Shown here piece by piece: positions 30,050-37,760 of a stretch of 37,892 bases of DNA. The notes under the pieces are model-generated. The model ran no database searches. It was given only the letters and a program-made list of their open reading frames with translations, and was not told the origin of the DNA. Made by a program: the position numbers and the translations under genes. Position 1 is the stretch's first letter. Each line of letters begins with the position of its first letter. The stretch comes from Oscillospiraceae bacterium (GTDB lineage Bacteria; Bacillota; Clostridia; Oscillospirales; Oscillospiraceae), in the NCBI GenBank assembly GCA_017508045.1, contig JAFVZT010000017.1:1-37892 (forward strand), in the 5' to 3' direction.

Positions 30050-30068
30050 ATAGTAAATTCATATTGAA

Positions 30069-30245
30069 ACACTATAGAGGCGCATTGCATCATTAGTAGC
30101 CTTTGCTTCACGGCTTTCGCAGAGCCTATGCAAAGAGGAAAGGGATCAGTGCCGAAGGGGGGCTGAGGCGAAAAGCACTCCTGGTTGCACAAATAAGATT
30201 TGTTCGACTGTCGCACGGTTTGCCGTGCGGAGAGCTATCTGTGTT
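30069..30245 (+). ncRNA. Lysine riboswitch (L box) aptamer
   Basis: The 438-bp gap before dapA contains the L-box conserved core: AGAGGCGC near 30076, GGAAAGGGATCAG and GTGCCGAAGG near 30140-30160, then GACTGTCGC and GGAGAGCTATCT (30229-30240). The outer helix P1 can form between ATAG (30074-30077) and CTAT (30235-30238), with ACAC/GTGT extending it. Lysine binding should stabilise P1 and favour the downstream terminator, lowering dapA-ddh-lysA expression when lysine is plentiful. Confidence 0.92.
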
Positions 30246-35555: not shown

Positions 35556-35682
35556 GCATATCATCAAGCCGACAGTTATTGATACACGCTAAAGCGTGAT
35601 GATATACGCCTTCGGCGATGATATGCACGACTACGTCGTGATGATATGCCAAGTCTGTCGGCTTGGATAAAAAAACTCTCGT
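35556..35682. repeat. Micro-hairpin array 1 (linker ATGATAT)
   Basis: An outer 11-bp inverted repeat, CAAGCCGACAG (35565-35575) and CTGTCGGCTTG (35655-35665), encloses three small hairpins: CACGCT/AGCGTG (35585-35598), CGCC/GGCG (35607-35617) and CACGAC/GTCGTG (35626-35640). Each is followed by ATGATAT. Left of the outer arm the linker appears reversed (ATATCATC). The whole 127-bp unit recurs at 36431-36556 with only about five differences. Confidence 0.9.
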
Positions 35683-35703
35683 TCCTAAGAACGAGAGTTT
35701 TTT
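35670..35703. terminator. Terminator after cassette gene 1
   Basis: A 9-bp CTCTCGTTC/GAACGAGAG stem with flanking A6 and T6 runs and loop CTAA. It ends the minus-strand gene at 35754-36344. Its left arm is part of the repeated unit; at array 2 only that left arm is present. Confidence 0.85.
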
Positions 35704-35753
35704 GGGACCGATACTCAAAATGGAAGCTGTCGAAAAACCTAATTTTCTATATT

Positions 35754-36344
35754 TTAGTTGTTATTACAAAAACTTTTTAATACTTCTTCTCTATTATCAT
35801 CATAAATCAAAAATTTGTTTTCACTTTTTGCAAACTCTACATTTTCGATACAGTTCGCATCAATCAATACAATCGCTTTATCACAAATATTATCTCCTGC
35901 AAGTTCATTTGCCTCTTCAACTTCCGTTTCAATATATTCATCAAGTGACATTATAATTCTTTTTTCAGTATCATCATCTTCTACAACTTCACAACAATAA
36001 TTCCACTTTTTCGTTTCGGTGTTATATTCGAAAGAAAAAACATTCGGAATAATAAGTGTATTATTGTAAACAAACCAACCACATTCCAACGAATCATCGT
36101 TTGGGTTATAAATGTACTTTATAGGCAAATCATTCTTAATAATTTCATTATAGATCTCAAAATTAGTGCCGGACCCTGCATAAAGTCTATATTTTTTACG
36201 TTCAGTTTTATAATAAAATGACCGCTTGTACTTAATGTAATCTATCGGCAGCAAAAATATAACGCAAACAGCTAAAATTAACGCTAATAATATACCAAAT
36301 AATGTTCCAAAAAAGTCTCCAATTTTGCTTAATATCTTTTTCAT
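35754..36344 (-). CDS. Membrane-anchored orphan protein in hairpin-bounded cassette 1
   Basis: 196 aa, very AT-rich compared with the backbone (many Asn, Lys, Ile and Glu codons ending in A/T). One N-terminal transmembrane helix (about 15-34), then a soluble part of mixed charge with an acidic stretch (VVEDDDTEKR; EYIETEVEEANELAGD) and five cysteines. I recognise no family. ATG 36344 has a weak GGTGGTGAAAGA site; the promoter segment at 36364-36393 fits. Base composition, isolation and flanking arrays suggest recent transfer. Roles such as immunity or phage defence accessory protein are possible but unsupported. Confidence 0.65.
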   Translation of the reverse strand: MKKILSKIGDFFGTLFGILLALILAVCVIFLLPIDYIKYKRSFYYKTERKKYRLYAGSGTNFEIYNEIIKNDLPIKYIYNPNDDSLECGWFVYNNTLIIPNVFSFEYNTETKKWNYCCEVVEDDDTEKRIIMSLDEYIETEVEEANELAGDNICDKAIVLIDANCIENVEFAKSENKFLIYDDNREEVLKSFCNNN

Positions 36345-36363
36345 TCTTTCACCACCATGGGTG

Positions 36364-36393
36364 TATTATAGCATAAAAGCGCTAATAAATCAA
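36364..36393 (-). promoter_or_regulatory. Promoter of cassette gene 1, shared 18-bp module
   Basis: On the minus strand: -35 TTGATT (36393-36388), 17-nt spacer, -10 TATAAT (36370-36365) with extended TGC. The 18 bp at 36364-36381 (plus-strand TATTATAGCATAAAAGCG) are identical to those upstream of cassette gene 2. Confidence 0.7.
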
Positions 36394-36556
36394 TGTGAAG
36401 CATTGTATCCCATCAATTCCGTAAGGAATTGCATATCATCAAGCCGACAGTTATTGATACACGCTAAAGCGTGATAATATACGCCTTCGGCGATGATATG
36501 AACGACTACGTCGTGATGATATGCCAAGTCTGTCAGCTTGAATAAAAAACTCTCGT
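36391..36556. repeat. Micro-hairpin array 2 (near-identical to array 1)
   Basis: 36431-36556 matches 35556-35682 in the same orientation: same outer CAAGCCGACAG arm, same three hairpins and linkers. Differences include ATGAT to ATAAT after the first hairpin, CACGAC to AACGAC, and CGGCTTGG to CAGCTTGA. Two further hairpins lie to the left: CAATG/CATTG (36391-36405) and CAATTCC/GGAATTG, each followed by a TATC(C/A)ATC-type linker (reverse of ATGATA). The match ends in ACTCTCGT, the left arm of the array-1 terminator. Confidence 0.88.
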
Positions 36557-36592
36557 GTCCAAAAAAGAACTGGGTGAAAACCGAGGAATTTC

Positions 36593-37138
36593 TTAATAAA
36601 TATCAATATTTGCACATTTTGTTTTTATAAATTCAAAGAAACTATCATATTGCTCTTTTGACTCAAAAGAAGATAAAGGTAACATATATGACATAACATT
36701 GTTGACATGAATATAAATCATTTTATTATCAACAACACTTATTCGTTCTATTGCAGAATATTTATGTTCCGTTTTATTTTCAGGTGTGGTTTCTACAAAA
36801 CTATCTTCATAGAATTCAATAATAGACTCAGGCGAATATCCCATTTTTCCGCTTTTCTTTAGAGTTTTGATTTGACCTTTTAAAGACCACGAAAAGAATC
36901 TGGTCAAGAAAATTTGAGCAAAAGATAAAATAATTAACATAGGAATAACGCCTAAAATAGATTCGAGCGAAAAGCCACCACTAAACAAAGAAATTGAAAT
37001 AAATATTACAAATAAAACTGAAATTGTTATTCTAAAAGTTTTAATCTGTTTTTTACCATAAGGAGACCTAATCATCCAAAAGGTGTTATAGTCTAAATAA
37101 TCTTGGTCGTTAAATTTTACATTAAATTGAAATTTCAT
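36593..37138 (-). CDS. YcxB-like family membrane protein in hairpin-bounded cassette 2
   Basis: 181 aa. Charged N-terminal segment (about 1-33, MKFQFNVKFNDQDYLDYNTF), two transmembrane helices (about 36-54 and 59-82) and a soluble C-terminal domain (about 100-178) resembling the YcxB-like C-terminal domain (IIEFYEDSFVETTPENKTEH; YSAIERISVVDNKMIYIHV; LPLSSFESKEQYDSFFEFI). The function of that family is unknown. AT-rich like cassette gene 1. ATG 37138 follows AAAGGAGTGATAAT. Its downstream side has array 2 but only half of a terminator. Confidence 0.75.
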   Translation of the reverse strand: MKFQFNVKFNDQDYLDYNTFWMIRSPYGKKQIKTFRITISVLFVIFISISLFSGGFSLESILGVIPMLIILSFAQIFLTRFFSWSLKGQIKTLKKSGKMGYSPESIIEFYEDSFVETTPENKTEHKYSAIERISVVDNKMIYIHVNNVMSYMLPLSSFESKEQYDSFFEFIKTKCANIDIY

Positions 37139-37156
37139 ATTATCACTCCTTTAATT

Positions 37157-37186
37157 TATTATAGCATAAAAGCGGCGAAGCCGCAA
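37157..37186 (-). promoter_or_regulatory. Promoter of cassette gene 2, shared 18-bp module
   Basis: On the minus strand: -35 TTGCGG (37186-37181), 17-nt spacer, -10 TATAAT (37163-37158), extended TGC. 37157-37174 equals the module at 36364-36381. The -35 hexamer overlaps the outermost hairpin of array 3 (GCGGC/GCCGC, 37172-37184). Confidence 0.7.
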
Positions 37187-37370
37187 GAGATAATGAAATC
37201 GTTGGCTTATGCTCACGGTGAAATCAAAGGCTTACGTCTTTGGTGAAATCGAAACCTTATGGTTTCGGTGAAATTAAATCCGTCCCTAACCCGACGAAGT
37301 CGGATTTCACCCCGAAGGGATTTCACCCAACAAAGTTGGATTTATCCCGTCCAAAAGGACGGATTTAGTT
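37172..37370. repeat. Micro-hairpin array 3 (linker GGTGAAATC / GATTTCACC)
   Basis: Left half: linker (G/A)(G/A)TGAAAT(C/T) at 37192, 37217, 37242 and 37267, an exact 25-bp period, alternating with hairpins such as CAAAG/CTTTG (37225-37242) and GAAACC/GGTTTC (37251-37266). Right half: the reversed linker GATTTCACC at 37303 and 37319, a variant GATTTATCC at 37339, alternating with CCGAC/GTCGG, CCC/GGG, CCAAC/GTTGG and CCGTCC/GGACGG. An outer 11-bp inverted repeat, TAAATCCGTCC (37275-37285) and GGACGGATTTA (37357-37367), encloses the right half. Confidence 0.9.
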
Positions 37371-37371
37371 G

Positions 37372-37409
37372 AAAAAGAAAGACACGATGAAAATCGTGTC
37401 TTTCTTTTT
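37372..37409. terminator. Terminator-like hairpin beside degenerate tRNA-Asn end
   Basis: A 17-bp stem (AAAAAGAAAGACACGAT with its complement, loop GAAA) with A- and T-ends, so it works in either direction. It directly precedes the first tRNA-Asn 3'-end copy. Confidence 0.8.
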
Positions 37410-37436
37410 GGCTCCCCTTGTTGGACTTAAACCAAC
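37409..37436 (-). pseudogene. Degenerate tRNA-Asn 3' end (older attachment scar)
   Basis: 28 nt covering CCA, discriminator, 3' acceptor strand and T-arm, matching 37715-37742 at 27 of 28 positions. Beyond it the similarity is lost before the anticodon arm. It cannot be a functional tRNA. Confidence 0.75.
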
Positions 37437-37679
37437 AGCTATTGCCCGCACTATACAACTCAAAATAATTGGCTGCTACTATGAACGTTTGCGGTACCCG
37501 AAAAATTCTGCGGGCTTACGCTGATCCTTGAATTTTTCGACCGCGGCACACGCTGCGCCTGCGCTTTATCTGCCACCGGCAGCGCGCAGGCTCGCGGCTA
37601 CCTCCTTCGCTACGCTCAGTCGGTATAGCGACGGTGCTGACAATCGTAGTTCTTTGGTGTGAATATACCAAAGAATGCC
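37437..37679. other. Non-coding remnant between two tRNA-Asn ends
   Basis: No credible gene. It contains nested GC-rich hairpins (GCCTGCGC/GCGCAGGC around CTGCC/GGCAG near 37560-37600) and a TTCTTTGGT/ACCAAAGAA hairpin (37650-37675). It is GC-richer than the cassettes to its left. Probably what is left of an earlier insertion. Confidence 0.5.
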
Positions 37680-37715
37680 AAAAAGAACACCACCCATATG
37701 GGTGGTGTTCTTTTT
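37680..37715. terminator. Perfect 36-bp palindromic terminator next to tRNA-Asn end
   Basis: AAAAAGAACACCACCCAT and its exact complement without loop bases other than those of the stem tip. It lies just 3' of the tRNA-Asn fragment on the minus strand and has T5 there. Confidence 0.85.
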
Positions 37716-37760
37716 GGCTCCCCTTGTTGGACTTGAACCAACGACCTGCGGATTAACAGT
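37715..37760 (-). pseudogene. tRNA-Asn (GTT) 3' half: probable attachment site
   Basis: On the minus strand: anticodon loop with GTT, 3' anticodon stem, variable loop, T-arm GTTGG...CCAAC with TTCAAGT, acceptor strand AAGGGGA, G and CCA. The match to tRNA-Asn stops at about 37760 in the anticodon loop; the expected 5' half is replaced by unrelated AT-rich sequence. Anticodon-loop crossovers are typical of tyrosine-recombinase integration into tRNA genes. Confidence 0.8.

Follow-up and report, generated by a model that had tools for sequence, protein, structure and literature searches.

Bipolar hairpin-linker arrays in an Oscillospiraceae contig: candidate cis-acting parts of a small element associated with S23 genes

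Repetitive extragenic palindromes (REPs) and bacterial interspersed mosaic elements (BIMEs), which go with REP-associated tyrosine transposases (RAYTs), are intergenic hairpins present in many copies, with a fixed foot (a tetranucleotide of the GTAG type) and opposed orientations. The DNA studied here, hereafter the window, is a stretch of 37,892 nucleotides from an Oscillospiraceae bacterium (contig JAFVZT010000017.1, assembly GCA_017508045.1) that carries three arrays of small hairpins joined by short linkers: A1 (35556-35674), A2 (36431-36549) and A3 (37193-37371), all on the minus strand. Like REPs and BIMEs, these arrays are fixed-foot intergenic hairpins in opposed orientations and in many copies; unlike them, they have no GTAG foot, their stem sequence is not conserved and no RAYT-like gene was nearby in the loci tested.

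A second relative is found among RNAs. The relevant passages of Weinberg et al. 2010 describe Gut-1 as, in all likelihood, a non-coding RNA that has no affiliation with mRNAs and is confined to environmental sequences from the human gut (PMC2864571). One half of an A3-type array resembles Gut-1 in sequence and structure. The full element differs in being bipolar, in having many linkers outside the Gut-1 model and in its link to genes for S23, the 23S rRNA intervening-sequence protein (PF05635).

S23-type genes are best placed by the intervening sequence of Coxiella 23S rRNA. As far as the consulted parts of PMC4990558 go, it lies inside 23S rRNA helices and is cut out by RNase III, tandem heptamers directly precede its S23 open reading frame (ORF) in numbers that vary among strains, the function of S23-type proteins is unknown, and the functionality and origin of these sequences were still unsettled when more than 25 years had passed since they were discovered. 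The likeness to the elements described below is considerable: an S23-type gene, heptamers directly upstream of it, a location inside a hairpin, a sporadic occurrence and the label selfish (PMC4990558). The elements studied here differ in standing between genes, often behind tRNA terminators, and in having their linkers between hairpins and in two opposed blocks; the window arrays too are between genes and not in 23S rRNA. Finally, PF05635 four-helix-bundle proteins resemble Avd of diversity-generating retroelements, according to the part of PMC10053308 that treats them.

Architecture of the arrays and its recurrence

In every array, stems of differing sequence alternate with linkers arranged in two opposed blocks. 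A reading of the window made from sequence only had placed three arrays here, and they were found at that place. Folded as single-stranded DNA, A1, A2 and A3 gave z-scores of -4.1, -3.9 and -4.6, and each was more stable than all 200 of its dinucleotide shuffles. A1, whose parts span 35556-35667 on the minus strand, contains a hairpin hp0 (CCAAG..CTTGG), three linker-hairpin units, a copy of the outer repeat (X*) and one inverted linker, after which the second half is truncated. By eye, a single ATATCAT (35558-35564) stands opposite three ATGATAT linkers (35599-35605, 35618-35624 and 35641-35647), and the hairpins occupy 35585-35598, 35607-35617 and 35626-35640. They are enclosed by an outer repeat of 11 bp, of which the distal arm X* (35565-35575, strand unassigned) and its partner (35655-35665) were read directly and from the centroid fold. 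A2 is a direct copy of A1, 97% identical, at a spacing of 875 bp. A3 is a full bipolar element with the linker xTGAAAT; by eye, four such linkers (37193-37274) stand opposite two ATTTCAC and one ATTTATC (37304-37346). Here, too, three hairpins lie within an outer repeat of 11 bp (37275-37285 and 37357-37367).

The details of the sequence-only reading needed some correction. Its fixed linkers, ATGATAT in A1 and A2 and a different one in A3, are not strictly constant (ATAATAT in A2, ATTTATC and ATGAAAT in A3). The linkers do form two opposed blocks in each array, with the restriction that A1 and A2 have one inverted linker each and lack most of the second half. The outer repeat surrounds three hairpins everywhere, with one mismatch in A2. 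That several linkers share one plan also proved right; the two linkers of the window, which had been called unrelated, have a common core, RTGAWAT, and a single Rfam model scores both. Moreover, the right arm of the outer repeat also forms the local hairpin hp0, which leads to two competing pairings, and the minimum-energy folds of A1-A3 are mixtures, not just the hairpins as drawn.

A covariance-model search identified A3 as Gut-1 RNA (RF01706): positions 37299-37371 on the minus strand scored 59.5 bits, above the gathering score of 50. The other half of A3 (37191-37279, plus strand) and the arrays A1 and A2 remained below it, with 37.7, 28.9 and 25.4 bits. The arrays are thus partly catalogued already, but as RNA. 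Gut-1 matches were found in at least 20 of 101 genomes sampled from the family of the window, at least 14 of them over the cut-off, and reach at least 30 per genome, many in facing pairs by eye; these counts are lower bounds, with 41 candidates scored per genome. One of 14 named control genomes gave a match, below the cut-off. At one locus (L114, G072:C2), Gut-1 arrays lie beside a CCGTAGGGGCGACC..GGTCGCCCG repeat present in several near-identical copies. The suspicion of a poorly described repeat class needs division: half of A3 is in the catalogue as Gut-1, and a description of the whole unit was not found in the literature on Gut-1, S23/PF05635 and heptanucleotide repeats, covered mostly as titles and abstract openings and with little of the subscription papers. 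Hairpin arrays were tied to S23 in no title or abstract start of the literature on PF05635, TIGR02436, Avd and S23.

Arrays also occur far outside this locus. Two-linker patterns gave 7 and 3 matches in the genome of the window and none for the reversed control; in a scan of 300 genomes of the family, the majority of the two-linker ATGATAT matches resemble chance by eye. In 83 loci chosen for Gut-1 or linker-pattern matches (the window, L070, L071 and L104-L183), 57 clusters of at least four linkers were detected. Their linkers run > then < in 35 cases and < then > in 4, while 3 clusters are mixed and 15 unipolar. In related Clostridia the same plan recurs by eye: a terminator and hp0, followed by three linker-hairpin units; then the hp0 arm once more, and after it hairpins with linkers in the inverted orientation, a promoter and a gene, repeatedly one for PF05635. 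The linkers are about 7 nt long and number 3-4 in each of the two blocks. Gaps between hairpins of up to 25 nt are most often 7 nt long (47/206), followed by 5 nt (26). Pairing is preserved over stem sequence: in an alignment of 18 sequences (MAFFT, then RNAalifold), 23 of the 39 consensus pairs show at least one pair-keeping change on both sides, although the variable stems contain cells with gaps or lost pairing. Of the 39, 13 connect one linker block with the other and hardly vary.

Association with S23 genes, tRNA terminators and promoters

Two of ten array-adjacent genes tested encode PF05635 proteins, a family present in 22 of the 101 genomes and in none of the 14 controls; 12 genomes have both PF05635 and Gut-1 (p 2.8e-5 for 20 and 22 of 101). 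This association, like the tRNA context and the Gut-1 match, had not been seen by the sequence-only reading. S23 loci were collected as 30 loci drawn from 37 places in the family sample plus the best 80 of 583 confirmed matches to a TGATG-type query; 100 were analysed, 94 of them with at least 280 nt upstream. A strict array call (at least three hairpins and at least four linkers of one class, in both orientations) was positive upstream of 61/94 S23 genes and 4/143 control ORFs of the same loci. Similarly, at least four perfect hairpins preceded 63/94 S23 genes and 15/120 controls. Controls were the regions before ORFs of at least 180 aa, and their counts (143, 120 and 124) vary through sampling and distance limits. 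The strict call was used in place of a recurrent-heptamer count (M7) and a "bipolar" cut, which discriminated poorly (89/94 vs 104/120 controls). The host genome itself holds one such unit (L199, G000:C27), composed of tRNA-Ser, a terminator, TGATG-linked hairpins, a promoter-like site and S23.

S23 genes without a hairpin array, picked by eye, have tandem repeats upstream. Of 27 tandem-type regions (21 from genomes and 6 from viral contigs), 25 match themselves best at lag 7 and the other 2 at lag 14. At lag 7 the self-match averaged 22.1 of 28, compared with 12.9 in 120 controls, and scores of at least 22 were obtained for 15/27 regions and 0/120 controls. All seven viral-contig S23 genes have such repeats by eye, the one at L324 being a TGAAAT array. 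In the even family sample, the 24 S23 genes comprise, by eye, 8 with hairpin arrays, 15 with tandem repeats and 1 with neither. Among solved relatives, the entries 2rld and 2gsc have five chains each, and the Xanthomonas protein is given as a homopentamer in PMC4990558, as far as its consulted parts go.

The repeats follow the S23 phylogeny. The linkers make up a series, of which seven members were recognised by regular expressions (TGATG, TGAAG, TGATAT, TGAAAT, CTAAAT, TCGATAT and TGAATT) and two more by eye. Ten classes mapped on the S23 tree required 14 changes, close to the minimum of 9, with a mean of 58.8 after shuffling and 0/200 shuffles as low. TGAAAT, CTAAAT and TCGATAT needed one change each, TGATG two, the tandem class three, and TGAAG and TGATAT four each. 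The tree holds 91 of the 94 proteins (at least 85 aa); its 118 columns limit resolution, near-copies favour clustering, L194 has a very long branch, and the labels include 8 linkers set by hand, 20 tandem rows by eye and 4 "none". Where one host has S23 genes of two clades, each repeat is true to its clade: G062 has a tandem (L201) and a TCGATAT (L222) locus, G001 a tandem (L205) and a TGAAAT (L217) locus. Since each S23 clade keeps a private short repeat upstream of its own gene, the pair is most simply read as a protein plus its predicted binding sites.

A same-strand tRNA gene within 450 nt upstream was found for 35/63 hairpin-type and 7/19 tandem-type S23 genes, 42/82 in all, compared with 3/124 control ORFs, and no S23 gene had an upstream tRNA on the opposite strand alone. 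Likewise, 20 of the 57 linker clusters have a tRNA gene within 220 nt, in all 20 cases transcribed toward the array. In the 41 tRNA cases listed, a terminator-like hairpin begins, by eye, within the first few nucleotides past CCA. Terminators before arrays often have an apical TTTGTC..GACAAA in common (L104, L118, L121, L156, L199 and L228), while their lower stems differ. On the other side of the array, a promoter with at most two mismatches is present in 30/67 hairpin-type regions (1.7 expected from mononucleotide shuffles). Among the 50 regions with a recognised linker and a promoter of at most four mismatches, chance promoters included, 33 have a -35 box that begins no more than 4 nt from the last inward linker. 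The tRNA 3' end is repeated in inverted form behind the terminator too rarely for a general scar (4/71 array- or S23-linked tRNAs, 3/79 others, 2/4478 cross-pairs); where this occurs (L138, L200, L248, L253 and L271), a long fold-back results. In 41 loci, comparison of the tRNA end with the 400 nt behind the S23 gene for arms or direct repeats gave little excess over cross-pairs (means of 8.0 vs 7.2, 8.6 vs 7.2 and 7.7 vs 7.1).

Copies of the unit occupy unrelated sites. By eye, a near-identical terminator-array unit stands behind tRNA-Gly in G052 (L104), tRNA-Leu in G061 (L154) and tRNA-Arg in G021 (L135, truncated where the contig stops), a distribution that points to transfer across genera. 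G061 has, in addition, nine complete copies of a 273-310-bp variant at unrelated sites. In six of the nine, the flanks are complementary arms (scores 9.5-20) and not direct repeats, and the complementarity of a copy's own flank arms averages 11.1 against 6.2 for cross-pairs, with 0/20000 permutations as good. These flanks support an insertion into host hairpins for most G061 copies, not for all. These copies lie at L106-L113; host-hairpin arms flank most of them, and those of L111 and L113 reach 24-26 nt and exceed the usual terminator stem.

The proposed element and its alternatives

We consider it probable, with the reservations given below, that S23/IVP (PF05635) is the recurrent protein of a small selfish element and that the arrays act in it as the cis-acting part. 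In a folded single-stranded DNA, the presumed active form, the hairpins would loop out while the linkers stay unpaired at even distances, and each linker may be bound by one S23 protomer; in the relatives without hairpins, the heptamers would simply follow each other in tandem. Such a protein-DNA complex could mark the two ends of the element, might autoregulate the promoter abutting the last linker and may help the element to be copied or inserted at terminator hairpins, chiefly those behind tRNA genes. Movement would thus occur by insertion at terminator hairpins and would presumably use a cutting and joining enzyme from outside. A1-A3 would then be copies without S23 that now lie beside AT-rich passenger genes. 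A clade-specific repeat in a fixed geometry turns the function of S23 into a direct question of binding, a gut RNA of Rfam would be recast as half of an apparent DNA element, and a bacterial element emerges with a tendency to follow the terminators of tRNA genes of many kinds.

Several observations speak against this proposal. No S23 gene adjoins the window arrays, and the one S23 found in their own genome (76% complete) belongs to the TGATG clade and not to the clades of A1/A2 or A3. The match of linkers and clades could come from plain co-inheritance of a gene and its upstream region, and 4 of the 91 tree rows have neither type of repeat. The S23 sample is biased: 70 of the 94 regions come from the best 80 of 583 matches to the TGATG-type query, and the strict call was positive in 56/70 of these and in 5/24 from the even family sample. 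Its rows are not all independent (L209 and L259 are one locus), and the control stretches before other ORFs include coding sequence. Phylogeny confounds the co-occurrence of Gut-1 and S23, as the equal or stronger co-occurrence of RAYT-like genes shows. Just 5 of the 55 hairpin-type S23 loci have a further run of linkers on the downstream side. In G061, three of the nine copies have flank scores of 5.5, 7.0 and 7.0, in the range of cross-pairs (mean 6.2, maximum 10.5), and an orthologous empty site for two copies was not found among 20 genomes. Lastly, PF05635 proteins have no catalytic activity known to us, so that a strand-transfer enzyme is missing. Neither the G061 flanks nor the biased sample is the main support of the proposal.

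A wider generalisation is put forward tentatively. S23/IVP proteins might be rings that read single-stranded nucleic acid in heptads, one protomer per 7 nt, and might form, with their clade-specific repeats, a class of minimal mobile elements for which terminator and rRNA hairpins are the sites of entry; Gut-1-like arrays would then be heptamers spaced by structured DNA. If true, this principle would explain both rRNA intervening sequences and Gut-1.

According to the catalogue, the hairpin string is instead a transcribed non-coding RNA, with S23 as a possible RNA-binding partner. The RNA level had also been among the candidates of the sequence-only reading, and it has the over-threshold Rfam match of A3 and the compensatory changes in the stems in its favour, as well as the resemblance of PF05635 to Avd, which has an accessory role in a reverse-transcriptase system (PMC10053308, in the part concerned). 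Covariation, however, cannot separate DNA from RNA, and in the 35 of 57 clusters with > then < linkers the two Gut-1 halves are on opposite strands and point toward one another. Moreover, the arrays mostly come after a terminator and before a promoter, a position that leaves no obvious transcript and agrees better with a DNA site than with an RNA. We therefore regard the RNA as unlikely.

Mobilisation of REP/BIME-type hairpins in trans by a RAYT or another Y1 transposase appears more doubtful still. Hairpins with a fixed foot sequence do resemble REPs, and RAYT-like Y1 genes, one of them in the host genome (G000:C24), are present in 15/20 Gut-1 genomes and 10/81 others (Fisher p 9e-8); the 25 genomes were picked by weak E-value and length and include borderline proteins in G020 and G084. 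However, a run of three linkers within about 2 kb on either side was found at 0/20 RAYT-like loci compared with 68/94 S23 loci, and on this ground a RAYT/Y1 gene was rejected as the linked gene, although action in trans would need no linkage. RAYT-like genes thus co-occur strongly with Gut-1 and yet are unlinked, which shows how little co-occurrence can prove here by itself. The hairpin feet are, by eye, RTGAWAT and other linkers, without GTAG, and several RAYT-like genes adjoin GTAG-footed palindromes, again by eye. Some of these genes (L344, L348, L349, L337 and L346), with flanking palindromes such as TAG-GGGCGGCC..GGCCGCCC, resemble the classical REP/RAYT pairing, apart from the arrays.

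It is very improbable that the arrays are attC-like recombination sites that collect single AT-rich genes as cassettes behind a tRNA gene: genes of 26-38% GC do lie between or beside arrays in the same direction in the window, L104, L105 and L118 (neighbours of 52-58% GC in L104 and L105, a locus mean of 44% in L118), but the scarcity of downstream linker runs (5/55) weakens cassette chains as a general rule and homologous recombination between copies accounts for chains equally well.

Genes and tRNA remnants around the window arrays

The terminators, promoter-like sites and ORFs of this section, and the tRNA fragment at 37410-37436, are on the minus strand. A terminator-type hairpin with perfect 17-bp arms (37372-37409, from inverted-repeat analysis) forms the head of A3. 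Between A3 and ORF2, a promoter-like TTGCGG-17-TATAAT (37158-37186) was read directly. ORF2 (36593-37138, 181 aa, 26% GC) encodes a YcxB-like protein (PF14317, E 3e-8). A2 is followed by a promoter-like TTGATT-17-TATAAT (36365-36393), also read directly, and by ORF1 (35754-36344, 196 aa, 28% GC), which has no Pfam match at E<=1. Behind ORF1, a terminator-type hairpin with perfect 15-bp arms (35670-35703, inverted-repeat analysis) forms the head of A1. ORF1 and ORF2, which stand between the arrays in surrounding DNA of 39-55% GC, are probable passenger genes; single AT-rich genes by arrays are also found at L104, L105, L118 and L123.

Directly before the A3 terminator lies a fragment of a tRNA 3' end, with T arm and acceptor strand (37410-37436), on which ARAGORN makes no tRNA call. 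By our own reading, this fragment and a second one at 37645-37755 resemble 3' ends of tRNA-Asn, and each adjoins a terminator-like hairpin. The outer fragment belongs to a 53-nt inverted repeat (74%) close to the contig end at 37892. Elsewhere in the window, a lysine riboswitch was detected at 30067-30245 (Rfam, 82 bits).

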